From Candidatus Brocadia sinica JPN1 (GTDB lineage Bacteria; Planctomycetota; Brocadiia; Brocadiales; Brocadiaceae), in assembly GCF_000949635.1 (NCBI RefSeq), contig NZ_BAFN01000001.1, positions 806,001 through 870,000 of the forward strand: 64,000 nucleotides of DNA, in the 5' to 3' direction. The notes below the pieces were generated by a model. The model saw only the letters and a list, made by a program, of their open reading frames with translations. It was not told the origin of the DNA and did no database searches. The number at the start of each line of letters is the position of its first letter. Positions within the stretch are counted from its first letter, which is position 1. A program made the translations under genes and the position numbers. Positions 49,443-64,000 of this stretch are shown piece after piece.

Positions 49443-50332
49443 AAAGAGGATACGCAGCACACACGCAGAAACAGGAAAACAGAAGTTCAGGGACGGCACC
49501 GGCAGCCCAGAAAAAGGGCATCACTTCATCCGAAGTGCAGAAATTCCAGGAAATGATCTACTGCTATTACCGGGAACACGGCCGCAATCTTCCCTGGCGG
49601 ATGACACAAAACCCCTATCATATCCTCATCTCAGAAATTATGTTACAGCAAACCCAGGTACAGAGGGTCATAGGAAAGTACGAACGTTTCATCAAAATAT
49701 TCCCTGATTTTTCTTCCCTTGCCCGGACGCCGCTCCGCACGGTACTCAGTGAATGGCAGGGATTGGGTTACAACCGCCGGGCAATAGCCTTAAAAAAGAT
49801 TTCTCAAAGGGTCACAGAAGAATTTCATGGAAATCTTCCCTCTGCTGTAGAAACATTAATTACCTTTCCCGGAATCGGCAAGGCGACCGCTTCTGCAATT
49901 TCTGCCTTTGCATTTCACATACCTACGGTTTTCATTGAGACGAATATACGGAGGGTATTTATCCACAGTTTTTTTCGTGATAAGACGAATATCACGGATG
50001 CCGAAATCCTTCCCCTGGTAGAAAAGACCCTTGACACTTCCAATCCCCGGCAGTGGTATTATGCCCTCATGGATTATGGAGTAATGCTGAAGCAGAAATA
50101 TGAAAATTTTAACAAAAGAAGCGCCCATTACCAAAAGCAGTCCCCATTTCAAGGTTCCAACAGGCAAGTGCGGGGAATGATTTTGAAAGCCCTTGCCGGT
50201 GCATCTTCTGTTTCCGAACCGGAAATGGCGCAAAAATTTCAGATAAGCAAGGAAAAACTAACAAGCAATCTTATTCAGTTGGAAAAAGAAGGTTTTATTA
50301 AAAAGAAAAGGAAAAAGTTTACCTTAGCTTAA
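49439..50332 (+). CDS. MutY-like A/G adenine DNA glycosylase lacking the Fe-S cluster
   Basis: The 297-residue protein has the HhH-GPD core: LPWRMTQNPYHILISEIMLQ with the catalytic Glu region (QQTQVQRV), then LSEWQGLGYNRRA, LITFPGIGKATASAIS (helix-hairpin-helix) and FIETNIRRVFIHSFF. In the last motif the usual catalytic Asp position reads Glu. After MDYGVMLKQ no Cys ladder appears, so the 4Fe-4S cluster of MutY/Nth is absent. The C-terminal 60 residues look like a winged helix (LEKEGFIKKKRKK) rather than a MutT-like domain. The gene overlaps porB by four bases. Confidence 0.82.
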   Translation: MKRGYAAHTQKQENRSSGTAPAAQKKGITSSEVQKFQEMIYCYYREHGRNLPWRMTQNPYHILISEIMLQQTQVQRVIGKYERFIKIFPDFSSLARTPLRTVLSEWQGLGYNRRAIALKKISQRVTEEFHGNLPSAVETLITFPGIGKATASAISAFAFHIPTVFIETNIRRVFIHSFFRDKTNITDAEILPLVEKTLDTSNPRQWYYALMDYGVMLKQKYENFNKRSAHYQKQSPFQGSNRQVRGMILKALAGASSVSEPEMAQKFQISKEKLTSNLIQLEKEGFIKKKRKKFTLA

Positions 50333-50462
50333 GATCCGGAAAGAAAAATAACCTTTTCTGAAGGTACGCAATACGTGTTTAAAATTCCTACGAAGAGTGC
50401 AAAAAAACCACAACAACCATTTTTTTATGGACAATTCCCCTGAAAAACAACCGAAAATAACG

Positions 50463-50476
50463 AGGCATATTATTTG
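50463..50476 (+). promoter_or_regulatory. Weak sigma-54 promoter candidate
   Basis: ggcatattatttgc has the GG-N10-GC spacing of -24/-12 promoters, 110 bases before the amidase gene. Only the core dinucleotides match well. Confidence 0.25.
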
Positions 50477-50586
50477 CGAAACTTTAAATGAGAAATATGA
50501 TACTGGCAGATGAATTTTGTTGTTCAGGAGAAATTGTAACCATTTCAGGTGCTTAGCCGGTATCAAATCTATTTAGGAGAATACCC

Positions 50587-51210
50587 ATGCATTCCCGGTG
50601 GAGAATATATATTTGTGTGTCTTTTCTTGTCGTTCTTGGCATGCATGGTTGTCATACACCGCCTGCTCAAAAATCTATGACTGTCATGAAACCTCGAGAA
50701 AGTGCCACGATTCCTGAAAAATCCCATGAAAGAGTGGAGCCTTATATTGTCAGTCGGTTAGATCGCTATTTTGTGCGAGACTGGAAGTACATCGTTATCC
50801 ATCATAGCGCCTCAGCATCCGGTAGCGCCGTCGAGTTTGATAGATTTCATAGGGAAAAAAGGGGATGGGAGAATGGCCTGGGATATCATTTTGTGATCGG
50901 GAATGGAAACGGCACCCCGGATGGAGAAATTGAGATCGGTAATCGATGGGTAAATCAGATCAATGGCGCCCATGCCGGCGTGGAGGAATACAACCATTAC
51001 GGCATAGGAATATGCCTTGTGGGAAACTTTAACGAATCCTCTCCAACGGCGGCACAAATGGCCTCACTTTCAGTATTAACGGAATACTTACAGAACAGAT
51101 GTCATATTCCTTCGGAAAATGTCATCATGCACAGACACTGCAGGCAGACGGATTGTCCAGGACGAAATTTTCCTTATTATAAATTGCTTGCCAATACCTA
51201 TCGTTATTGA
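50587..51210 (+). CDS. N-acetylmuramoyl-L-alanine amidase (Amidase_2/PGRP), lipoprotein
   Basis: The 207-residue protein has a signal peptide ending in a lipobox-like LGMHGC, then the amidase core from about residue 65: WKYIVIHHSASASGS with zinc His, FHREKRGWENGLGYHFVIGN with Tyr and His, GIGICLVGNFNESSPT, and MHRHCRQTDCPGRNFPY with the third ligand. All zinc ligands appear present. It should cleave the peptide from glycan in peptidoglycan from the periplasmic side. A candidate -24/-12 site lies upstream. Confidence 0.88.
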   Translation: MHSRWRIYICVSFLVVLGMHGCHTPPAQKSMTVMKPRESATIPEKSHERVEPYIVSRLDRYFVRDWKYIVIHHSASASGSAVEFDRFHREKRGWENGLGYHFVIGNGNGTPDGEIEIGNRWVNQINGAHAGVEEYNHYGIGICLVGNFNESSPTAAQMASLSVLTEYLQNRCHIPSENVIMHRHCRQTDCPGRNFPYYKLLANTYRY

Positions 51211-51260
51211 AATATATCACACCGATTTGAAATTCAATGATCTTCGTGAGAGCAATAGAC

Positions 51261-54200
51261 TTATCGGTGTTTATTTGACTTTTTAGTGATATTCAAATTA
51301 ATAATTTCCCGATATTTTTTTAGCCTTTCATCCTGTTTCAGTCTAAATCGCAACGGTTGGTGTCCCCTTCGGCATATGGTGGCGAATTCGCACCATGCAC
51401 ATTTTTGTGTATCTTCTGCCGGTGAAACGGGAAAGATGCCTTCACGGATGACCTGGAGAAATTCCCGCAAGGTCTCCCAGTATTGTTCCTTGCACGACAT
51501 CCAGCCATCACTGTCAATGGTCTTTTTTGGCGGACATATCTGCCCCTTCTTTTCCTCCATAGACTCTGCAACGTAAACAAAGGATGCCTCATCCAGATTG
51601 GCCTGATCTTTGGGAATGCGACCCTTCTCAATTTCCTCCGATAGTAAATGTTCTGCCATGGTGATATAGAAGGGGAGTTGCAATCTTTGCCCCCGGATGG
51701 CAGATTTTAAGAGATTTTCCACAGAAAACCTCCCGGATTTGTAATCGATCACATGAAAACTAGCCATGTCTCCTGCTTGTTTTATATCTATCCGATCGAT
51801 CTTTCCCTTAAACGTTATCTTTGTACCCTCTTCCTGTTTAAAGGATGCAGGGATGAGTTTGAACAAGTCATTCTGTGGACCCAGTTTTACTGTCTTTTCC
51901 AGGTAAGTGGGGATATAGCCCGTTTTTTCGATCTGTTCGAGATCCCATGTTATAAATCTTGTGAGAAGATCAAGTATCTCCTCTTTTTCTATTTCCCAGA
52001 TGATCGGGTATGGAGTCGGTATCTTTTGTTCTATTTCTGTGAAATATTTTTGGGCAATACTGCGCAAAAGTTCTATGGAATTTACATTGTGTCCCTTTGT
52101 TTCAAAATATCCTTTCTCTATCAGGGTATGATAAAAATCCCTTAGTATGCTGTGATAAAGGGTGCCAAGATCCACGGCTGCTATCATCCCAGCCGCCTCC
52201 GGCTCTTCCAGGGACTCCAATCCGAGAATCTTGCTCATGAAAAACTTAAACGGACAGACCCCAAAGACCTCTACCGCCGTTGGGCTAAGACCCTGGCATG
52301 CCTGCTCATTCAGCCATTCGGACATGTCACCAATGACCCCATCGCATGATGTTAAGTAAGGCGTGTAGCCTTCGAGAAAATCTAAGCTTGACTGTGAGCG
52401 ATCAAAGACGTCACGGTTGATTCCAAAGGTCTTCAGAAAACAGGTAGGGTCTATTCGGTCGAGCGCCATACGAATACCAATCTCTTTGGGTGTAAGCAAG
52501 GACACTTCTGTATTGGATAGCTTGTCTTTAATACCCCGTGGAATGTAAACTTCGTATTCCGGCTTTTGCCAAAGATTCTTTCCTGTTACGGATATCCCTT
52601 TCATACTTTGAAGGATATCCATGAGGTAATGTGATTGAACCTTCGGCTTTCCTGCTTCATCTGAACGTTCATGGAGGAGATAGAGTCGCTCCCATGCGGC
52701 GTTTAACAAGAACGTGAAGAGCAAACGCTCCTCGTCAAATCCCCGGAGCTTTTCAGGAATGAAATTTCCCAGGACTTCTGAAAGCCTGCGGCGGACATGG
52801 TCACGCAAAAAGGGTTCTTCAGAAATAGCACGGGGAAATACCTTTTCATTGAGACCCAATAGAAACAAGGCACGGAAAGGAATGCCGCGGGCCGACATGG
52901 CATCCAGAACCTTTACACCCCTGCCGTTTCCCGATCCCAAGGGTAAGGATCCCTGCCGACATGCGTCTATTAAGGTATCTATAAATTGATCCCGCGTTAC
53001 CTCTTCACCCAAACAATCCAGGGTGCATAAAGTGCGCAACAAATCCCCTATTTTATCCAGTATTAAGAGGTCTCTTTCTTTATCCCCAGGATTCCTGCCT
53101 TCAGAGGGAATGTGAATGTAGTTCCAGAGAAAATGAGTTATTTTTTGACCCATAATCGTCCATGATGCCTTTTCGGGAAGGGAAGATAAATCATTTGATA
53201 ACGTATAGAGGATATTTTTCAGAAGTTTCACTTGATCCGTGGGGATGTGGATGCGCCCACCTGCCTCTTCATTATCTGGAAACATATTTTTTCCCCCCCT
53301 GACCCTCCCCTCACAAAGAGGGGAATACGAAGGGGTATTTCCGTCAATATTTGTTTCATCTTTTGATATGGATTTTTCATTATCCAGGTCAACAGATTCT
53401 GACGGCATAACACTCGCTTGCTCAAGCCTCGACAACCAGCACGTGATATCACCCCGAATACCCAGCCTTCTGCTCAGGATGTCCCAGAGATCGGGGCGTG
53501 GAATAACTCCCTGAGGATCACACGGCGGCATCTTGAAGTAAGGTGACCAGAGCAATTCAATGACCATAGGACGATAGAAATCTTCCCGTTTCAGCGTGAG
53601 GATCTGTTGGATGACTTTTACCAATGGATACCTTTCCAGAGGCTCCTGTGCGCTGGTTATAAATGGGATATAATTCTCCTGGAATATTCTTTTGATGGCA
53701 TCGGTGTAAGGGTCAAGCGATCTTGCAACTACGCCGATCTCCTCCATCTTATAACCCTCATCCACTAATGTAAGTATCTCCTTAGCAACTATCCAGACCT
53801 CATCCCTTTTGCCTGAGGCATTTATAATACGTATATCTGATACGGGTTTCGTATTGTGAGTTGTGTGTTGTGTCTTTAACCTATGTCCCGCAACCTGTAA
53901 CTCGTAACCCGCAACAAAACTATCTTCGGATTGGGGAGCCATCAGGTATGAGAATCCGGTATCACCCTCTGCAGATAGCTCCTCTACATCACGCGCCTGT
54001 CCCAGGACGAATGATTCATAAAAGGGCTTTACATAGGAAAAGGCGGGATGTTTCCTTTGGTAGGGCAGAAAGAGGATTGCCGGATAAGTCCTGAATATTT
54101 CTCCAAAAAAATCCTGTTCAACTCCTGTAAGATCATAAAACCCATATGCCAGGATGCGATCAAAACCATTAAGAAATCCGGAATCCGGTACACATGCAGT

Positions 54201-54755
54201 GGCCATACGAAAGACATCAGAATAGTGGGACATATTTAAGGTTTTCAATTTCCGGCAGAACATGTTATGGAGATGTACGACTCCGTGGAGATTCTGTATT
54301 TCCATACCTTCGACGAATCCTTCACGAACAGCCTCTTTCAAGTCATCGACCCGAACATTTGCGTCAATAAGGTCTTGTATGACCTGGAATAGGGCTTTAG
54401 CGAGGGCAGGCAGGGACTGTACATTTTTAAAAAAAGACTCTTGAGTCGTATATTGTTTTAATAATCCGGCAATGATGCTTTCATAAATAACCGGCTGTTG
54501 AATAATCTGGCCTGTGTTTATCCCTGAGCGTCTGCATATCTCATTTGCAAAGACAGAGAAGTTCATAAACGAGATATTCATAAATGAGGCGTTATGCTCC
54601 TGAACCAGGCGTTCCTGGAGGCGATTCAGCATCCAGTTTGTAGGCGCCACAACGGCAAGGGGTGCTAAGGGATCGTTCTCTTTTAACGTTTGTATGGTAT
54701 TTACAAACGAATTTTCAAGGGCTGGGTGATAGTGTCCGATCTTAACGGATAACAT
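51261..54755 (-). CDS. AddB/RecB-like PD-(D/E)XK nuclease-helicase with repeat-derived insertions
   Basis: The 1164-residue protein resembles AddB/RexB-type subunits. The N-terminal region (LAVVAPTNWMLNRLQERLVQ) lacks a Walker A lysine, so it is helicase-like but probably without ATPase there. Later regions are VLDAMSARGIPFRALFLLGL and LRGFDEERLLFTFLLNAAWE. The C-terminal nuclease has GTLYHSILRDFYHTL with His, DRIDIKQAGDMASF and HVIDYKSGRF. A 4Fe-4S site is suggested by VCPFKFFMSK together with CAWCEFATICRRG near the end. Two stretches, about residues 278-302 (53845-53920) and 473-492 (53280-53335), look like translated intergenic repeats. Its AddA partner is not adjacent. The role would be DNA end resection. 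Confidence 0.8.
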   Translation of the reverse strand: MLSVKIGHYHPALENSFVNTIQTLKENDPLAPLAVVAPTNWMLNRLQERLVQEHNASFMNISFMNFSVFANEICRRSGINTGQIIQQPVIYESIIAGLLKQYTTQESFFKNVQSLPALAKALFQVIQDLIDANVRVDDLKEAVREGFVEGMEIQNLHGVVHLHNMFCRKLKTLNMSHYSDVFRMATACVPDSGFLNGFDRILAYGFYDLTGVEQDFFGEIFRTYPAILFLPYQRKHPAFSYVKPFYESFVLGQARDVEELSAEGDTGFSYLMAPQSEDSFVAGYELQVAGHRLKTQHTTHNTKPVSDIRIINASGKRDEVWIVAKEILTLVDEGYKMEEIGVVARSLDPYTDAIKRIFQENYIPFITSAQEPLERYPLVKVIQQILTLKREDFYRPMVIELLWSPYFKMPPCDPQGVIPRPDLWDILSRRLGIRGDITCWLSRLEQASVMPSESVDLDNEKSISKDETNIDGNTPSYSPLCEGRVRGGKNMFPDNEEAGGRIHIPTDQVKLLKNILYTLSNDLSSLPEKASWTIMGQKITHFLWNYIHIPSEGRNPGDKERDLLILDKIGDLLRTLCTLDCLGEEVTRDQFIDTLIDACRQGSLPLGSGNGRGVKVLDAMSARGIPFRALFLLGLNEKVFPRAISEEPFLRDHVRRRLSEVLGNFIPEKLRGFDEERLLFTFLLNAAWERLYLLHERSDEAGKPKVQSHYLMDILQSMKGISVTGKNLWQKPEYEVYIPRGIKDKLSNTEVSLLTPKEIGIRMALDRIDPTCFLKTFGINRDVFDRSQSSLDFLEGYTPYLTSCDGVIGDMSEWLNEQACQGLSPTAVEVFGVCPFKFFMSKILGLESLEEPEAAGMIAAVDLGTLYHSILRDFYHTLIEKGYFETKGHNVNSIELLRSIAQKYFTEIEQKIPTPYPIIWEIEKEEILDLLTRFITWDLEQIEKTGYIPTYLEKTVKLGPQNDLFKLIPASFKQEEGTKITFKGKIDRIDIKQAGDMASFHVIDYKSGRFSVENLLKSAIRGQRLQLPFYITMAEHLLSEEIEKGRIPKDQANLDEASFVYVAESMEEKKGQICPPKKTIDSDGWMSCKEQYWETLREFLQVIREGIFPVSPAEDTQKCAWCEFATICRRGHQPLRFRLKQDERLKKYREIINLNITKKSNKHR

Positions 54756-54893
54756 CTTTAGTTTACCTTACAAAAACCTCTTTTTACGTTTTTTGAAATT
54801 GATTCATAATCCGTTGACTACTATACACTAAATTCGAATTTCGGATTTCCATAACAGAAAAGTATTTATAGAAACCTTTCATGAGACTCACTA

Positions 54894-56150
54894 TCAGATA
54901 TCATCTCTTTTAAGAGGCTCTGCCCCATTGGTCAGTTCTAGACTCTTGATGTGTGGCAGAGATGCGCCAATAATACCTTCTATATCGCCATACATACCGA
55001 CGGTATTATTGACTATCCTTTCAATCTGTTTTTCTCTCTTTGCCCATATTTTTATCATTGCCCTTTTTTCCTGATCCAGATCTTCTTTCATAGATTTAAA
55101 GGATTCCACGATTGCCTCAATTCTTTGCCGGAATTCCGGTCCTGACAAATAATTGTAAAGTACCTCCATCTTTTCACTTTTACCGACAATGGATAATTTG
55201 TGTTGTGCCAACTCTATTAAACTCGTCCGTAAAACTGACGCCAGGGCAGTTGACAATAAAGAACTCGTGACCCACACCCCCTCTATTTGTCCAAAACTTT
55301 CTACTTCCATGGGCAGGGTTTCTGTCACCAGAACGGCAATTTCTGCCTTTACCTCTCTTTGGTCGTCTTTCAGTTTTGATAGCCAGCCGTCATTCCAGGC
55401 CTTCGTATGCTTTGATTCCCATAGAATGGTGCCGCAATAATGGCCACTCCGGTTATGGACTTTTTGCGCAATATCAGCCCCCTTAATTCCTTTGGGTACC
55501 GGTTGGATTTCATCAACCGGAAATTGGGTCCTTAAAAGGGATTCCAAATCCAACTCCAGCACCTCCCCCTGGGTTTGTATGGAACCCTGATGTGCCTTGC
55601 GTTTGGCTTCATCAAGGGCCTTTTTGGTGTCTTCCAGTTGTTTCTCTTTTTCCAGGAGTTTTAGGCGATTTTCTTCCTCCGCTTCTTTTCTTGCTTTTTC
55701 AAAGATCAGCTTGCGCTCTTCGTCAAGCTTTCTGGTTATTTCGAGTTCCTGGTTCTTTCTCAATTCTTCTAACTCGCGTATCTTCTTGCGAAATTCTAAC
55801 TCGGCCTTTTGGGCCTCGGCAATTTTCACCTCTTTTTCATTATTCTGTTCCTGCAAATCTTTTAACTTAACCTGAATGGCGTTCTCAATCTCTTTTCTAG
55901 CCTCTTGCTTTAGCTTTTCTCTTTCGGCCTGCAATCTCTGGGAGACCTGCTGGTCAATTGCCTTCTGTGAGTCTTCCAGAATTTTCTTCTCTTCTGCAAG
56001 TATCTTCTCACGTTTGGCAAGCTCTAATTCTCTATCCCGTGATTTCAGTTCGAACTCTTTTCGAAGCCCTTCTTTTATCTGATGAGAGAGCGTTTCAGTT
56101 AATGGTATCTCTTTACCGCAATAGGGGCATGTTATCGTTTGATCTGACAT
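54894..56150 (-). CDS. DUF2130 protein (RmuC-like coiled coil)
   Basis: The 418-residue protein starts with a zinc motif (ITCPYCGKEIPLTETLSHQI), has a long charged coiled coil (residues about 25-190), then the DUF2130 core: GEVLELDLESLLRTQFPVDE, PVPKGIKGADIAQKVHNRSG, GTILWESKHTKAWNDGWLSK, which carries a PD-(D/E)XK-like E-x-K site. Such proteins are linked to DNA metabolism and are common beside restriction systems. It is followed upstream (minus strand) by an hsdM relic and an FRG gene. The role is not established. Confidence 0.85.
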   Translation of the reverse strand: MSDQTITCPYCGKEIPLTETLSHQIKEGLRKEFELKSRDRELELAKREKILAEEKKILEDSQKAIDQQVSQRLQAEREKLKQEARKEIENAIQVKLKDLQEQNNEKEVKIAEAQKAELEFRKKIRELEELRKNQELEITRKLDEERKLIFEKARKEAEEENRLKLLEKEKQLEDTKKALDEAKRKAHQGSIQTQGEVLELDLESLLRTQFPVDEIQPVPKGIKGADIAQKVHNRSGHYCGTILWESKHTKAWNDGWLSKLKDDQREVKAEIAVLVTETLPMEVESFGQIEGVWVTSSLLSTALASVLRTSLIELAQHKLSIVGKSEKMEVLYNYLSGPEFRQRIEAIVESFKSMKEDLDQEKRAMIKIWAKREKQIERIVNNTVGMYGDIEGIIGASLPHIKSLELTNGAEPLKRDDI

Positions 56151-56193
56151 ATCGTTATCCTAAAGCATGTACAAGTATTGTGCCTCTTTCATT

Positions 56194-56340
56194 TTATCCC
56201 GGTTTGGAAAACTCATCTGCCATCTTCAGGAACGGCATATATGTGAGTTGCTCTAAATAATCGCCATAGCCTACGCCATCATCCCGTAGGGTGTGGCAGA
56301 AGCTCCATATCTTACTGACTAGTGAACTTGTATTCATCAT
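56194..56340 (-). pseudogene. N-terminal relic of a type I restriction methyltransferase (HsdM)
   Basis: From the ATG at 56340 the minus strand reads MMNTSSLVSKIWSFCHTLRD, then DGVGYGDYLEQLTYMPFLKM and ADEFSKPG before a stop at 56194. LVSKIWSFCHxLRDDGVxYGDYxEQLTYLLFLKMADE is the characteristic start of HsdM subunits; the SAM-binding and NPPF parts are missing. The start overlaps the stop of the FRG gene (ATGA), so hsdM was cotranslated with it. The DUF2130 gene begins 44 bases after the stop. Confidence 0.8.
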
Positions 56341-56643: not shown

Positions 56644-58014
56644 TTAACAAGCGATTTTATAGGCCAACCCAGAAGGCGTTTTTACCGTCAGGGCGTTTTT
56701 GGCAATTGCCAGAAGGTTTTCAACGGGATTAGCACCTTGTAATTCCGCAGAGCGAAGCAATGTCATAAGGATAGCCTGGGTATTCGCACCTTGAGCAGAA
56801 CGATTTTGTTGTGAGATCTTTCGAGTCAATACCGGCTTTCGCATCTGTTGCTCAGCATGGTTATTATAGGGACTCACGCCCTCATGTTCCAGGAACGTAA
56901 AGAGTTCCTCTTTATGGCGATTCAGACGTTTGATCAGTCTTTGTGCGTCTTTATCCTGATAGGGTGTTATCAAAAACTGTTCAAGCCGATAATGTAATCT
57001 CTTTTTCAACCGAAGAAAGCATTCTGGACTCAAATGGTTCTTTTCCTCCGATAACCGCAATGCGTCTTTGAGCACACGAGAGAGTTTTTTCCGGAAAGCT
57101 TTCCATGGAATTGACCGATTGTATGTGTCGACTTTTACCAGTTCCGTGAACAGATGATAGAAACACCGCTGCTTTGCCAGTGCGTTTATCTTGTTATAAG
57201 CGCCCCAGAAGTCACAAATCAGGATGCCCTTGAATAGTCTGCCTAAGAACTTTTCTATGACAGGCGACCCCCGATTGCGTGTTATGAGGTAGTAGCAGAG
57301 GGTTTTGGTGGTAAAACACCATAACCAATGGGTTTTCCCGTTCAACCGCCACCCTGTTTCATCTGCGTGTAAAACGGCACTTGCGGAGACTTTTTGTCCA
57401 ATATCGTTATACCGTGATTCCAGGAGTGTTGCAAGGGACTTCCAAGCCTGGGTTAAACCACCGGCGCTTATGTGAAAGTTGAAAAATACGGAAACCATCT
57501 TTACGATATTGTTTATACTTATGCCGACTAAGTAATGAAGCCAGGCGGTAAAGACAACGAGGCGCAATCCGAGTCGGGCATTTGGCAACGCGTCTGTGAC
57601 CGTAGGCTGGACAATCTTTCTACAACAAGAACACCAGGAACCATGAACCGTATGTTCAGTCACGACCGGATCAATCTGTGGGATATCTTCGATGTATCGC
57701 TTATACGTTCTTACCGGATTTTGCAGTGGCTGGTGGCAATCAGGACAACTCTTGAGGGTATGTGTCTGATAGGCAGTTATTTTTTCCGGCCGTTTCCGGG
57801 AAATCCCCTTATGTCCGTGTTTCCTGCCACAAGGCCGTCTTTTCCTTTTGCCTGCGGGCTTGAGATAAGAGGGTGTCATGCCGGACGGGGTGGTTGGACT
57901 CGGTTTATCGCAGAGTCTGTCATAGTTCTCTGCTTTCTCGGCCAGTATCAGGATGGCCTGAATCGCATCCTCTCTGTCCATCTCTAAAATGGCTATGGCT
58001 TCATCCCTGGTCAT
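56644..58014 (-). CDS. IS66-family transposase, copy 2
   Basis: The 456-residue protein is identical to the transposase at 37535 except for one seen substitution (MTPSYLKP instead of MTPPYLKP). DDE residues (HADETGWR, CDFWGAYN, NNHAEQQMR) and Cys motifs are intact, so it should be active. It overlaps the DUF4338 gene by 14 bases. Confidence 0.93.
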   Translation of the reverse strand: MTRDEAIAILEMDREDAIQAILILAEKAENYDRLCDKPSPTTPSGMTPSYLKPAGKRKRRPCGRKHGHKGISRKRPEKITAYQTHTLKSCPDCHQPLQNPVRTYKRYIEDIPQIDPVVTEHTVHGSWCSCCRKIVQPTVTDALPNARLGLRLVVFTAWLHYLVGISINNIVKMVSVFFNFHISAGGLTQAWKSLATLLESRYNDIGQKVSASAVLHADETGWRLNGKTHWLWCFTTKTLCYYLITRNRGSPVIEKFLGRLFKGILICDFWGAYNKINALAKQRCFYHLFTELVKVDTYNRSIPWKAFRKKLSRVLKDALRLSEEKNHLSPECFLRLKKRLHYRLEQFLITPYQDKDAQRLIKRLNRHKEELFTFLEHEGVSPYNNHAEQQMRKPVLTRKISQQNRSAQGANTQAILMTLLRSAELQGANPVENLLAIAKNALTVKTPSGLAYKIAC

Positions 58015-58882
58015 GAGCAAGAAACCTCCGGAAGTTTCTCTCAAGAGGATAGAGGTAGAGTTCCTTAGGCTGTCCATGATACTGATAGCGATTGCCCCGT
58101 TTTGCATTCCCTTGGGTTTTCCCAACACGAATCCAATTGGCTGCCTGGTAGCAGGTGCCTTGAAACCGTGCGGTATCAACAAAGGTTTCAGCCAAATACA
58201 CGGGATGGCCATAGACGGATTTCCAGTCATGTGACAAACGCCTCAGGGCGAGGGATAATACCTTGGATGCAAGGTGTTTGATCATAACCCAGGGTGGAAT
58301 GAGAAATCGCACGTTACTTGCAATCAAATGCAAGTGTATCCGTTTGGTAGACTCATCCCATCCGATGAAACGATCACGGTCTTTGACCTTCCATGCGGCA
58401 CTTGCCCATCCAAGACAGGCAACGACCTGGTTGCCGATATGTACGATGTGCCTGATGTGTTCGCCAACAAGCCGGGGACATCCGAGGTAGTGGTAGTGAT
58501 GAAGGAGATAACCCCAGAGGTACCTCTCTTGATGGTCTCTTACCACCTGGACCGTCGGGGTTTCATACTCGGTGATGGCACCTTCCAGTGTTCTTTTGAC
58601 GAAAAGGGGCATCTGATCAAAGACCTTGGGTTTGAGATTGTTTTTCGGCCGTATTCGTGGCGGAAGCGAAACCAATCCCTGCTCTTCCAATCTCAGAAGG
58701 AGGTCTCGTGCTGCGTATTCTTTCAACTTGCCATTGGGCTGCATCCAGTTCCAACTCTTGCAGAGTTCACGGGAAATATAACTTCGCCCTCTGAGAAAAT
58801 GACGCTCAGTGAGAGCCTTGATAAAGGCTATATCGTCTGCATGCAGTTCTCGTGAACGGTAGTGGAATAGGATAGGCTTCAT
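58001..58882 (-). CDS. DUF4338 (DruA-like) protein, copy 2
   Basis: The 293-residue protein is identical to that at 36667 at the protein level as far as I can compare; one synonymous base differs in the Ser codon of LCKSWNW. Both copies keep full-length frames, suggesting that the gene is needed by the element. Confidence 0.88.
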   Translation of the reverse strand: MKPILFHYRSRELHADDIAFIKALTERHFLRGRSYISRELCKSWNWMQPNGKLKEYAARDLLLRLEEQGLVSLPPRIRPKNNLKPKVFDQMPLFVKRTLEGAITEYETPTVQVVRDHQERYLWGYLLHHYHYLGCPRLVGEHIRHIVHIGNQVVACLGWASAAWKVKDRDRFIGWDESTKRIHLHLIASNVRFLIPPWVMIKHLASKVLSLALRRLSHDWKSVYGHPVYLAETFVDTARFQGTCYQAANWIRVGKTQGNAKRGNRYQYHGQPKELYLYPLERNFRRFLAHDQG

Positions 58883-59032
58883 AATCAGATTCCTTTTCTC
58901 TGAAGCCCTTTATACCATAAATGGCAAACTGACGCCAGCGTTTTTTTGCGTTTTAACGCTCTTACGGTAAAAACGCCTTCTGGGTTGGCCTATAAAATCG
59001 CTTGTTAATTTTTCAAAGAACTAAAGTGTTAC

Positions 59033-59490
59033 GATTATAGTTTTTTTTATAGAGGAAAGCTTATCTTCCTTCTTCTTTGCGTTTTTTAGATAATCAGACA
59101 CTATTGGTTTGAATGCCCAAACGACACCATAATCATTCTCGCATGGTTTTTCTACTGTAAACCATAGTGCTACCAGCGGGCTACTTGTCCGGTCCAGCAA
59201 TCTTGTGAGTAGCCCATGATGCCGAGCTAGTGCCAATAATTGGAATTTATTATGTGGCAACTCACTAATGTGTGGTTTAGAAAATCTTTTAAATGTTTCA
59301 AGTAGTTTTTTTTCAAGTTTTTCTATATTAATACTTTTATCTCTTATTAGCCCATCTTCGACTAAACGCCCCACTTTAGGTCGTAGTGGCCAATCAATGT
59401 TTTGACCTCTGTACAAGAAATCGTCTGACGAACATTTTTTTCGATTGTCCGTATAAAGTGAGAGAATGATTCTATTTTAATTTCTTTCAT
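59033..59490 (-). pseudogene. FRG-domain gene, 5' part (split by the IS)
   Basis: From the ATG at 59490 the minus strand reads [20 protein letters not shown], the usual FRG start. After a one-base frameshift near 59420 comes [20 protein letters not shown] with the RGQ motif, then [20 protein letters not shown] and [10 protein letters not shown]. The frame reaches the IS at KKTIIxxx; joining the pieces across the 8-bp target restores KKTII-FQPELISPR in frame. FRG proteins are of unknown biochemistry and are often in defence loci. Two frameshifts indicate the gene decayed further, unless they are sequencing errors. Confidence 0.78.
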
Positions 59491-59734
59491 ATTTGATCAT
59501 TAAATTATGTTTTTTTCCTCAAATACTTTTTTAAATGATCTGTCACAGGGTTTCGTTTTCCAGCAAGCTGGAAGTTATGGTTTCATCTAATTTACCACAA
59601 ACCGAGAGATTACTTTCCATTTTTTAACAATGGTTTTTAACCCCTAAGGGGTGATATTGCCGTTGTATTTCACCCCTTCGGGGTTGGATATGGTGTTACG
59701 GTTTTTACCTATAATCATGTCATCCCTTCGGGAT

Positions 59735-59962
59735 TGTTTTCTTTCGCGTCTCATTCTTCGCATCACCCTCTCCCTGTCTGACTTTATCCACTTCAAGAGT
59801 TTTAACGCCGGTTCTTCTTTAATGTTTTGTTCTACCAGTTTTCCTTCAAATATCTTTTTTAAAATGCTTTGGCGTAGGGCTTCGCTTTGTTGTAAGCTTT
59901 GGGGCAGTAGTTTCTTCCAGAATTACCGCAAACAGAGAAGCACCTTCACATATTTCAAGCAA
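59735..59962 (-). pseudogene. HsdS C-terminal relic A
   Basis: On the minus strand this copy begins LLEICEGASLFAVILEETTA, then a one-base insertion (gggg for ggg near 59911) shifts the frame into SLQQSEALRQSILKKIFEGK and LVEQNIKEEPALKLLKWI. The EALRQSILKKxFExKLV...DEPA..LL..I pattern is the conserved C-terminal helix end of type I restriction specificity subunits. It is about 90% identical to relic B. Confidence 0.7.
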
Positions 59963-60138
59963 TGGTTTTTTAATCCCGAAGGGATGTAATTATTATAGCA
60001 ATATCATCGTGAAATATTTTTAAACCCCGAAGGGGTGATATATTATCGTTACCGTCATTTTATTGTACATCTTCTGGTTTGTGTATTATTTACTGCTCAT
60101 ATCGATAATCCATCGTAACTCAGTCAGTGGTGGAAATA

Positions 60139-60600
60139 TTACTCCATCCATTCAAATAAATATTTTTCATTATAGTCAATTTCAAATTTCTTTAAAAAGT
60201 CAATATACTCCTCCCGGAAGGTTTTTTTGCAGTGATGCTCCTCTTGATTCAATATGTAATCGTAAACATTCTGAATGTGTGAATGAGAATATGAAAATGC
60301 GCCATATCCTTCCTGCCAGGAAAATTTCCCTTTCACTAATCTTTTCTCATTGATAAAATTGGATGAATTGTTTTTGATATCACGAACCAAATCGGAAATA
60401 GCCATAGTCGGTCGCAACCCGACAAAAGCATGAATATGGTCAGGCATGCCATTGACAATGATTGGCTTTTGTTCTTTGCCTTTGATGACGCCGGCAATGT
60501 ATTTATGCAATTCCTCTTTCCATTCCTTACGAATGAGATTTTCCCATCCTTTTACCGTGAAGACAACTTGGATGTAAACTTGTGAAAATGTGCCTGCCAT
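60139..60600 (-). CDS. IS200/IS605-type (Y1, HUH) transposase, REP-associated
   Basis: The 153-residue protein starts MAGTFSQVYIQVVFTVKGWE and has NGMPDHIHAFVGLRPTMAIS with the HUH pair (HIH), then SWQEGYGAFSYSHSHIQNVY and DYILNQEEHH with the catalytic Tyr candidate. It is complete in size for TnpA of IS200. It is embedded in the hairpin array, with hairpins about 100 bases after its stop (60024) and just upstream of its start (60617), as RAYT-type transposases are. No TnpB gene follows. It probably cuts single-stranded DNA at hairpins. Confidence 0.85.
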   Translation of the reverse strand: MAGTFSQVYIQVVFTVKGWENLIRKEWKEELHKYIAGVIKGKEQKPIIVNGMPDHIHAFVGLRPTMAISDLVRDIKNNSSNFINEKRLVKGKFSWQEGYGAFSYSHSHIQNVYDYILNQEEHHCKKTFREEYIDFLKKFEIDYNEKYLFEWME

Positions 60601-60773
60601 AGAATTCCCCCTTTTAATCCCAAAGGGATGTTATTTTTATAACAATACCGTTGCGCAATTATTTCTGAACCCCGAAGGGGTGATATATTTTCGGCTCGTC
60701 ATTCTATTTCACCCCTTAGGGGTTGGATTTTGTGTTATGGTCTTTACCTATAATCATATCATCCCTTCGGGAT

Positions 60774-61001
60774 TTATTTTCTTTCGCGTCTCATTCTTCG
60801 CATCACCCTCTCCCTGTCTGACTTTATCCACTTCAAGAGTTTTAATGCCGGTTCATCTTTAATGTTTTGTTCTACCAGTTTTCTTTCAAATATCTTTTTC
60901 AAAATGCTTTGCCGTAGGGCTTCGCTTTGCTGCAAGCTTTGGGCAGTAGTTTCTTCTAGAATTATCACAAACGGAGAAGCGCCTTCACATATTTCAAGCA
61001 A
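60774..61001 (-). pseudogene. HsdS C-terminal relic B
   Basis: A 75-codon frame from a TTG reads LLEICEGASPFVIILEETTA, then QSLQQSEALRQSILKKIFER and KLVEQNIKDEPALKLLKWIK. It holds only the final coiled-coil helix and tail of HsdS; target-recognition domains are absent. No ribosome site is evident. It lies inside a roughly 390-bp unit that is repeated at 59639-60036. Confidence 0.72.
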
Positions 61002-61157
61002 TGGTTTTCTAATCCCAAAGGGATGTTATTATTATAGCATATCAGTAAGAGAATATTTTTTAACCCCGAAGGGGTGATATTGCCGTTGTATTTCACCCCT
61101 TCGAGGTTGGATATGGTGTTACGGTTTTTACCTATAGTCATGTCATCCCTTCGGGAT

Positions 61158-61264
61158 TTTTTCTTCAGCGCCTCATCCTTCTCCCTTTCTGCCTTTATCC
61201 TCTCCAGGAGTTTTGATACCGGTTCGTCTTTTGGGTTTTACTCATCCAGCTCTCCTTCAAATGC
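61158..61264 (-). pseudogene. HsdS C-terminal relic C
   Basis: The minus strand reads AFEGELDE, a TAA stop, then NPKDEPVSKLLERIKAEREK. This is nearly the textbook HsdS end (AFEGELV.QNPKDEPAS.LLERIKAEREK), from a different lineage than relics A and B, with a nonsense codon. It is followed by the same hairpin type (61145-61157). Confidence 0.65.
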
Positions 61265-62218
61265 CTATAATTTTCACAAAATTCTAAATACTGATACCTG
61301 CTCGATCATTTCTTGAAATATCCCCGACTTTTATAGAATGGAAATTTACCTTTTGATTTCCCTTGCATAATGATTGGAAAGCCATATCCCTGAAAAATTT
61401 TACACACCGCCCCCAACTTCACAACAGAGAGGCATTTGTTTTCCGTCCATCATATTTATATCACCCTTTCAGGGTTTGTTAATTCCCTTTTCTCATTTTG
61501 CTATAAGCATATCAGCCCTTCGGGCTTGGCTGCTAGATTTTCTTTAATGGAGTACGTACTTGATGACACCTACCCTTATATCTTGTATTTCGGTTGCGGT
61601 CTTCTATACTACATATGCTACCAGGTGTCGTTAAGTGCATACCCCACTTTTTCTTTATGAGGTGCGCACTTGACGGCACTCGCTCAGCATATTTCGGTCT
61701 TACCACGATCTATTGGGTGCAGTTATAGCTTAACAAATCAGGTTTTACTGTTTGCTGGAGTAAACACAAAAAATTCAGTTTGATTTTCAGAAAAAACATC
61801 GGCTTTTTGCTATACATCAAGCATACCCCACCTTTTTATGTACGAAACACCGAAGGTGTATAATGATTATAGAAAACTTCTCTGTACTTTCACACGCAAA
61901 GGGAAGGTTTTCGTTATTCAGGTATTTGAGTTTCGCCGAGGCATATCCTCGTCATAAAAACATATCAGATTTGATGAAAACATACAAGCTTCAAATTGTC
62001 TTGAATGCCTGAAAAATACTGGTAAAATCATGAGAGGACAAAATACATCAAGACATCGAAAAGGCCATGAAAATATTGTTAAAGAAATTTTTCCTTGGTT
62101 TTCATATAATCATGTGACTTTACACCGCACATTTCTTGTATGTATCCTTATCGGCGTTAATTCGTGGCTCAATAATTTTAATTATATGAGAAAAGCCACC
62201 TATTTTTGGAGTACTTTC
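61265..62218. other. Non-coding tail of the repeat region
   Basis: About 950 bases with scattered REP-like hairpins (61463, 61514, 61847) and otherwise no gene I can support. Open frames crossing it include the hairpins themselves and have no family resemblance. The frame upstream of the EamA start (from 62030) is open but reads as non-coding. Confidence 0.5.
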
Positions 62219-62635
62219 ATGGAAACATTTTTCCTTGCCTTACTTACAGCCTTTATTTGGGGATTCGTGCCTTTTCTGGAAAAGGTAGGACTCTCGTCTG
62301 TTGAACCCACTGCAGCGTACATGGTAAGATGTTCAGGCGTTTTTCTGGGTGTTGTAATCCTTATCGCTTTTACCCCTCAGTTTCCATCCTTTGGGAAGAT
62401 GGGGGTTAAATCGATTTTCTTTCTTATCTTTGCTGGTATTCTGGCGGGTGTTGTAGCACAATTGGTATTTTACAAGGCGCTCAAGATGGGTGAGATATCA
62501 AGGGTTATTCCCATTACAAGCTGTTACCCGTTATTTACATTTCTTTTGGGTTGGATTTTCCTGGGCGAGGAGGTGACTCTGTCCAAGGTAGCAGGTATGT
62601 TACTTATTTTAGGCGGGATATTGCTCTTAAAATAG
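62219..62635 (+). CDS. Small EamA/DMT-family transporter
   Basis: The 138-residue protein starts METFFLALLTAFIWGFVPFL with a GGAG ribosome site eight bases upstream. It is one EamA repeat with four to five membrane segments; the hallmark pair AFIWGFVPFLEKVGL and SRVIPITSCYPLFTFLLGWI...GEEVTLSKVAGMLLILGGI is present. Single-repeat forms act as dimers. An open frame extends 63 codons upstream but lacks conservation-like composition. The histidine-kinase gene follows after six bases. Confidence 0.82.
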   Translation: METFFLALLTAFIWGFVPFLEKVGLSSVEPTAAYMVRCSGVFLGVVILIAFTPQFPSFGKMGVKSIFFLIFAGILAGVVAQLVFYKALKMGEISRVIPITSCYPLFTFLLGWIFLGEEVTLSKVAGMLLILGGILLLK

Positions 62636-62641
62636 TTTTTT

Positions 62642-64000
62642 ATGAATTATTACAGAAACATCTTCAAAAGTATTAAGATACAACTCATCTCTTATATCTG
62701 TCTTTTAACCACCGTTCCGTTATTGTTTGTTTGTGTCGTGGAATATTACAGTAGTAAGAGCGCCATTGAGCAGCGGATGATCGAACAACTGACCTCCATT
62801 GCTGACCTGAAAAAAAGTGAGCTGAACAATTGGCTGGAAGAGCGGTTGACCGATACCTCGGTAATTGCCCGCAACAAGGTGCTTGCTGCGGCAGCAACAA
62901 GCCTTTTACAGCAGAGGAGAAGATTTGAAAGTATCGATGAGTTGAGAAAATCAGAAGCCGGCCGTATAAATTATGAACGGATTTTAGACAATCTTCATGT
63001 CCTGAAGCAGTTTTATAAACATTACAACGTTATCTCTATAATAGACGGTGCAAATGGAGAGGTGGTTATATCCACATACCCCGGGATCGTGGGTAAAACC
63101 CTGAGCTCGTTTGGCAGTTATATAGATACCCTCGGGAAAAAAGAGGTAGCCGTGAAGGATATCTACACCTCTGAACTGACCGACCAGAATTGTATGACGT
63201 ATTTTTGCCCGGTTTGCATGACAGATACCATTACCCTGGAAAGCAGCGATATTATCATTGGCGCCATATTATTGGATGTTAATGTGAAAAACAGCGTTGA
63301 ACCGGTGATTCGCAACTGGCCAGGAATGGGAACAACAGGAGAAACACTCCTGGTGAGGAGAGAAGGGAATACCATTGTCTATTTAAATGACCTTCGTCAC
63401 AAGGAGGGAGCGGCCTTGCAATTTATCAGCCCCATCCATTCTACCCTGGATATCCCTTCGGTGTTAAGCTCCGGTGGCGAAGAAGGGATTAAAGAATCTG
63501 TAGACTACAGGAATGTTCCCGTACTTTCTGCCTACCGGCACATCCCCGTTCTCAATTGGGGACTTGTGGCAAAACAGGATTTAACAGAGGCATTTGCCCC
63601 GGTTGAAAAACTGAAAAACCGCGTTGTCGTGCTGATCTTTGTTTGTATTACCGTTGTCATTGCTCTTGGCGTTTCATTCACCAATCGTATTACGCAACCT
63701 CTGTTACAACTGGCGCAGGGGGCGAAGGCTATTGGTTCAGGAAATCTTGACCATCGTATATCGATTCTATCGGAGAATGAGGTGGGTCTTCTTGCCAAAG
63801 AATTTAATCACATGGCTGCAAAACTGAAAGAGTCATATTCAAATCTGGAACAAAAGGTGGAGGAACGAACGGCCCAGTTGCTGCGAGCCGAGCGACTCGC
63901 TGCGGTAGGTGAGCTTGCAGCCGAGGTGGCCCATGAAATCAATAACCCGTTAGGTGGTTTGCAGAATTTTGCCAGCATGATTGAACATGAACCGGAAAAT
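62642..64000 (+). CDS. Membrane sensor histidine kinase (5' part, runs off the window)
   Basis: The frame from ATG 62642 is open for 453 codons to the window end. It has a first membrane helix at about residues 13-30 (LISYICLLTTVPLLFVCVVE), an extracytoplasmic double-Cache-like sensor of about 290 residues (IIDGANGEVVISTYPGIVGK; LLDVNVKNSVEPVIRNWPGM; SAYRHIPVLNWGLVAKQD), a second helix at about 325-345 (VVVLIFVCITVVIALGVSFT) and a HAMP domain (ITQPLLQLAQGAKAIGSGNL). A coiled coil then leads to the HisKA region ERLAAVGELAAEVAHEINNP with the phospho-acceptor His. The ATPase domain lies beyond the window. The sensed ligand is unknown; four Cys in the sensor (NCMTYFCPVC) are notable. Confidence 0.9.
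   Translation, partial: MNYYRNIFKSIKIQLISYICLLTTVPLLFVCVVEYYSSKSAIEQRMIEQLTSIADLKKSELNNWLEERLTDTSVIARNKVLAAAATSLLQQRRRFESIDELRKSEAGRINYERILDNLHVLKQFYKHYNVISIIDGANGEVVISTYPGIVGKTLSSFGSYIDTLGKKEVAVKDIYTSELTDQNCMTYFCPVCMTDTITLESSDIIIGAILLDVNVKNSVEPVIRNWPGMGTTGETLLVRREGNTIVYLNDLRHKEGAALQFISPIHSTLDIPSVLSSGGEEGIKESVDYRNVPVLSAYRHIPVLNWGLVAKQDLTEAFAPVEKLKNRVVVLIFVCITVVIALGVSFTNRITQPLLQLAQGAKAIGSGNLDHRISILSENEVGLLAKEFNHMAAKLKESYSNLEQKVEERTAQLLRAERLAAVGELAAEVAHEINNPLGGLQNFASMIEHEPEN

Follow-up and report, generated by a model that had tools for sequence, protein, structure and literature searches.

The window, i.e., the whole stretch of 64,000 nucleotides analysed here, originates from Candidatus Brocadia sinica JPN1. 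Read on the minus strand from 61425 down to 59528, it carries residues 13-65 of a type I specificity subunit (hsdS), a C-terminal piece of hsdS (tail C), a palindrome, tail B, a further palindrome, the transposase gene tnpA, half a palindrome, tail A, three quarters of a palindrome and tail D. The whole feature spans approximately 59528-61526 and exceeds the region 59735-61264 that had been singled out originally.

All tails lie on the minus strand. Tail C (61148..61264) matches residues 423-458 of the HsdS of G010:C7 with 75% identity (E = 1.7e-9), tail B (60762..60959, within a 75-residue open frame at 60774-61001) matches residues 401-462 of the same protein with 64% identity, and tail A (59737..59916) matches it with 67% identity. 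The DNA of tail A is 90.6% identical to that of tail B, with a one-base insertion upstream of tail A. A search of the genome with a tail consensus built from intact HsdS genes retrieved B, A, C and the degenerate tail D with genome-wide E values of 8.7e-17, 1.1e-15, 3.1e-10 and 7.1e-5, respectively; residue shuffling yields z values of 25.8 (A), 28.3 (B) and 19.0 (C). The original prediction of three relics of the HsdS C-terminus is thus borne out for A, B and C, but it missed the truncated tail D (59528..59623; 53% identity to HsdS residues 390-421, E = 0.001), which aligns with the other tails and ends abruptly shortly before an FRG reading frame. The proposed alignment of units A (59639-60036) and B (60669-61075) gave 90.2% identity over the aligned columns, where about 90% had been stated originally. 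Relic C had been called different, with only the last 35 to 75 residues preserved in each relic. Its segment 61063-61264 aligns with the beginning of the A unit at 86.6% identity, and it also retains hsdS residues 13-65 (61267..61425, minus strand), frameshifted and joined directly to tail C. By tblastn this N-terminal part shows 70% identity to the HsdS of G010:C74 (E = 1e-17), and at the DNA level 91% identity with the intact G010:C74 gene extends to the junction at about codon 65, directly after which the tail follows. Relic C is the hsdS gene itself, residues 13-65 having been joined to the tail through an internal deletion.

The assignment to HsdS relies on intact relatives, since Pfam holds no HsdS family that covers the tail; accordingly, a Pfam search of the relic frames A, B and C returned no HsdS match, an outcome that had been named as grounds for abandoning the idea. 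In relatives, the tail query matches the end of long open frames that span 326-513 codons, with up to 77% identity, and two of these full-length genes ending in the tail are HsdS according to NCBIfam (PRK09737). A PDB sequence search with the tail gave only weak matches to unrelated proteins, and a search of a plasmid collection gave no match. The tails thus share the conserved C-terminal sequence of full-length HsdS, for A, B and C that of intact proteins from related Candidatus Brocadia genomes, but the two target-recognition domains of a specificity subunit are absent from A, B and D, and C contains only the start of the first one. Judged from their sequence, the four tails are relics and not functional HsdS. 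The search for a full hsdS with the same 3' end plus hairpin, as had been suggested, was unsuccessful in the genome itself, where the only other hsdS (C1:1261650-1263216) lacks this tail, but it succeeded in sister genomes.

Within the window, 13 of the 24 G+C-rich hairpins fall into the 2.1 kb of 59500-61600. The full element is not the single hairpin pair described originally: it is a palindrome of approximately 160 nt with four hairpins, H1-H2-H3-H4, that folds into one long hairpin. The complete copy between tails C and B (61005..61162, minus strand, as all copies) has a folding z of -6.48, none of 200 shuffled sequences being as stable, and, just as in intact relatives, the tail reading frame has its end within H1. 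The second complete copy, between tail B and tnpA (60612..60778), has its hairpins at 60761, 60711, 60669 and 60617. Between tnpA and tail A only the half element H3-H4 is found (59968..60040; hairpins at 60024 and 59973), and between tails A and D three quarters, H1-H2-H3 (59636..59738; hairpins at 59722, 59672 and 59640). The element occurs at no fewer than seven other places in the genome. Such an inverted palindromic pair, able to fold into a single hairpin and scattered over the genome, corresponds to what is termed a REPIN. An empty-site comparison for the dispersed palindromes was dominated by genus-wide repeats. In most Brocadia genomes searched, a repeat of approximately 305 bp (L053:1674-1976) whose core is the four-hairpin palindrome is present in many copies.

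TnpA (60139..60600, minus strand), an intact frame of 153 residues, is an IS200-type Y1 transposase (PF01797, E = 1.3e-24; NCBIfam transpos_IS200, 62.9 bits with a cut-off of 55), and the original statement that A and B flank it as direct repeats is correct. At E ≤ 1e-20 it is single-copy in the genome. It is not a RAYT (class 2 TnpA_REP): the NCBIfam model REP_Tyr_transpos scores 28.4 bits with a cut-off of 80, and the protein carries the motif Y---Q instead of the Y---NP signature of RAYTs. Its motifs DHIH, SWQEG and YILNQEEHH, read by eye, fit subclass 1.2 (DH[IV]H, WQ, Y---Q--HH; PMC6006769), so that in terms of motifs the window transposase matches this subclass of IS200/IS605-type TnpA. 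Among 25 loci with related tnpA genes, 24 show hairpins within 400 nt on either side, where the rest of the window would predict 0.15 per 800 nt. The hairpin sequences vary between TnpA lineages. In relatives, tnpA is placed between the same two defence genes, hsdS and hsdM. G003 possesses two tandem tnpA genes that are 91% alike (L077:3196-4299); the second is 99% identical to tnpA of G010:C7, and therefore two TnpA lineages lie together in one array.

The flanks of the window, 50001-56168 and 61946-64000, are syntenic with G009 at 90-92% and 95% identity, respectively. Between the same flanks G009 holds an intact operon hsdR-hsdS-tnpA-hsdM. In the window hsdR is missing, and of HsdM only the first approximately 50 residues are left (56185..56340, minus strand; PF12161 HsdM_N, E = 1.5e-7; 82% identity to residues 6-55 of the HsdM of G003). 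The locus is therefore a decayed type I restriction-modification operon in an anammox bacterium. It has gained an IS66-type transposase, a DruA-like gene and a frameshifted remnant of an FRG-domain gene (59021..59490, minus strand), whose start frame (59362-59490) lies apart from the frame that matches PF08867 (59021-59416, E = 8.9e-23). The IS66-type transposase frame overlaps the frame of the Druantia DruA family (PF14236, E = 1.9e-41) at 56644-58882, both inserted in the dead operon. A 16-nt sequence, GCATACCCCACTTTTT, is present twice in direct orientation upstream of the hsdS relic, at 61637-61652 and 61821-61836; the two copies lie 184 bp apart and are 94% identical.

Extra tails also accompany intact hsdS genes. 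In G010:C74 an intact hsdS of 449 codons is followed by two tails at a spacing of 392 bp, and G010:C7 has an intact hsdS with a tail, tnpA and another tail behind it. One extra tail is present in G015 (hsdS, tail, tnpA, hsdM) and in the uncultured Chlorobi bacterium L064 (hsdS, tnpA, tail, hsdM). In these relatives the extra tails alternate with four-hairpin palindromes of the same kind and are joined by an IS200-type transposase, all between hsdS and hsdM. Because intact hsdS genes in G010, G015 and the Chlorobi bacterium have extra tails downstream, the copies are not just decay products; the hsdS end was duplicated repeatedly. This upholds the predicted duplication of hsdS 3' ends together with hairpins. 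G003 has the same chromosomal neighbours as the window, with two tails and two tnpA genes; most of its hsdR and hsdS is lost, approximately 74 N-terminal residues of HsdR being joined to a tail, and its decay is independent of that in the window.

In a survey of 392 genomes of the phylum at E ≤ 1e-7, short orphan tail frames were found only in G000, G003 and G010, and all tail matches outside these loci lie in open frames of at least 274 codons; the extra tail of G015 falls below this threshold and was detected only by a more sensitive comparison. No extra tail was found at G007, G009 and G026, which carry another TnpA lineage, or at G016. G011 and G024 have lone hsdS tails with no matching hairpins or tnpA nearby. 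These look like ordinary hsdS remnants, and tail survival alone therefore does not require palindromes. Approximately 500 bp from the lone tail of G011 lies a CRISPR-like array (L084:137-944) in which an identical 22-nt palindromic repeat recurs at a distance of about 71 bp. The Chlorobi tail relic contains two insertions of approximately 20-25 nt that are able to form hairpins and are absent from the intact hsdS tail of that genome (L064:6041-6450). The extra tail found in G015 is broken up by a different repeat, which has inverted ends, GTAGGGTGGATTAAG...CTTAATCCACCCTAC (L080:9380-9500). A break point common to window C, the G003 tail t1 and the G015 tail r, AGGCATTTGAAGG, was considered as a specific recombination site and dropped after inspection: the joins in the window and in G003 have short stretches of microhomology, and what G015 carries there is the interrupted tail.

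Two observations bear on the history of the copies. In tails A and B of the window, t2 of G003 and r1 of G010:C7, the 5' end meets the palindrome in one and the same degenerate sequence, and this copy therefore predates these species; the Chlorobi locus has a comparable arrangement but is joined differently. The tail r1 of G010:C74 is a recombinant: its left part resembles r2 and its right part the intact hsdS over approximately 80 consecutive diagnostic columns, preceded by a short mixed stretch. Since unequal crossing-over between hsdS and a relic yields such a hybrid directly, recombination is supported, with the reservation that the tail comes from a draft genome, on a contig of 3.9 kb, and that such assemblies may resolve tandem repeats wrongly. 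Between relics, dN/dS amounts to 0.23-0.60, compared with 0.00-0.25 between intact tails, each calculated from few sites. A and B differ by several synonymous and few amino-acid changes, a pattern that could hint at constraint, albeit in small numbers.

The stretch between hsdS and hsdM appears to have a history of its own. The HsdM proteins of G003, G007, G009 and G026 are 92-95% alike, but the TnpA proteins of G009, G026 and G007 are only 55-58% alike to that of G003, which gives two TnpA groups. The HsdR of G016 is only about 76% alike to the others, but in TnpA it agrees with G015 at 98%; the divergence of the G016 HsdM (67%) was left out owing to masked bases in the contig. Given these discordant identities, the stretch appears to have been exchanged separately from the neighbouring genes.

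We consider it probable that, within a type I operon which has since decayed, the 3' end of hsdS was duplicated together with the palindrome and that unequal homologous recombination changed the number of copies, which drifted while the operon died. The ancestral minus-strand order would have been hsdR-hsdS-[tail/palindrome units]-tnpA-hsdM, the gap between hsdS and hsdM in this lineage hosting the IS200-type transposase and palindromes shaped like REPINs, i.e., inverted pairs of hairpin repeats. The hsdS 3' end and the adjoining palindrome would have been duplicated as a tandem unit of approximately 390 bp while the operon was alive; we infer an illegitimate joining at the palindrome end as the origin of the first copy. 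Unequal homologous recombination between hsdS and the tail copies may then have altered the copy number, the copies, presumably devoid of function, drifting as noncoding sequence. In the window lineage, the operon subsequently died, losing hsdR, most of hsdM and the middle of hsdS (relic C) and leaving the tail array with tnpA behind.

The tails might also have been multiplied by TnpA itself, as the original prediction allowed beside recombination: putative single-strand cuts at the palindromes would carry tail plus palindrome as a unit and produce tandem copies directly. Such a transposition is possible in principle, as the Brocadia tails begin within approximately 10 nt of the end of H4, TnpA carries an HuH motif (DHIH) and a Y motif, as expected, related tnpA loci are flanked by hairpins far above background, and the palindromes are scattered through genome and genus. 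It is nevertheless unlikely, for in the genome itself tails of this type occur only in the hsd locus, all in the same orientation and none beside the dispersed palindromes elsewhere, and r1 of G010:C74 is better explained by homologous recombination. Very improbable is the other origin proposed at the outset, leftovers of an hsdS cassette array for switching specificity. The presence of more than one partial copy of hsdS within a single type I locus does recall known inverting systems (PMC7394358), but the repeats here are direct and not inverted, no recombinase or invertase gene was recognised among the tails, and target-recognition domains are absent from A, B and D and from the extra tails of relatives, no relic comprising a complete one.

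Another competitor, improbable and less likely than transposition by TnpA, is serial replacement, in which each tail is the remnant of a former full hsdS that was displaced by a new hsdS and palindrome block recombining at the C-terminal region. In L064 of the Chlorobi, the homology between hsdS and the relic passes the stop codon and ends before the hairpin, as though the 3' end of an older hsdS had taken up the block, and the separate exchange of the gap, seen as discordance of the TnpA lineage with HsdM and HsdR, fits as well. Repeated independent displacement, however, would not be expected to leave Brocadia tails that all start at the same point of hsdS, with no remnant of target recognition. 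More speculatively, the tail may be a working part of a hairpin-transposase block, its copies acting as homology arms: through them the block of palindrome, tnpA and palindrome would enter, leave or be exchanged behind related type I hsdS genes, across genera and even phyla, with an intact hsdS restored each time; we regard this as improbable. Duplication followed by unequal homologous recombination remains our preferred reading.

Some elements insert at gene 3' ends, so that a displaced 3' end stays behind. The present loci resemble these in the succession of intact gene, transposase block and spare gene 3' end, but they have no site-specific integrase, and the copied segment is long (approximately 190-235 bp) and repeated several times in tandem. 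With the REPIN/REPtron systems of RAYTs (TnpA_REP; PMC3116915, PMC6006769) they have in common that the Y1 transposase is single-copy and lies between inverted pairs of short palindromes, which also occur scattered over the genome. They differ in the IS200-like Y---Q--HH signature of subclass 1.2, with a score below the RAYT cut-off, in half elements that each consist of two hairpins about 50 nt apart, and in the siting of the closest TnpA lineage in the hsdS-hsdM gap. TnpA of subclass 1.2 agrees with ours in its length of about 150 residues, the motifs DHIH, WQ and YILNQEEHH and a low copy number; as described, it generally lacks typical IS200 end structures and occurs mostly in Cyanobacteria and Bacteroidetes, whereas the genes found here belong to Planctomycetota and Chlorobi and are flanked by hairpins (PMC6006769). 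Extra partial copies of hsdS are also known from type I loci in which hsdS is duplicated and accompanied by inverted repeats (PMC7394358), but here the copies comprise the C-terminal conserved region alone, are directly oriented and bring no alternative target-recognition domains. Our literature searches, covering openly licensed papers, found no paper on a link between hsdS, IS200 and palindromes or on REP-associated transposases with hsdS.

The finding joins two topics that are usually treated separately: pairs of REPIN-type palindromes and transposases, and the way in which specificity genes of type I restriction systems evolve. Should tail copies exchange sequence with a live hsdS, recombination at a defence locus would be recorded in a form that is easy to score. 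Furthermore, a lineage within the little-studied subclass 1.2 transposases gains candidate cognate hairpins, whose binding and cleavage are directly testable.
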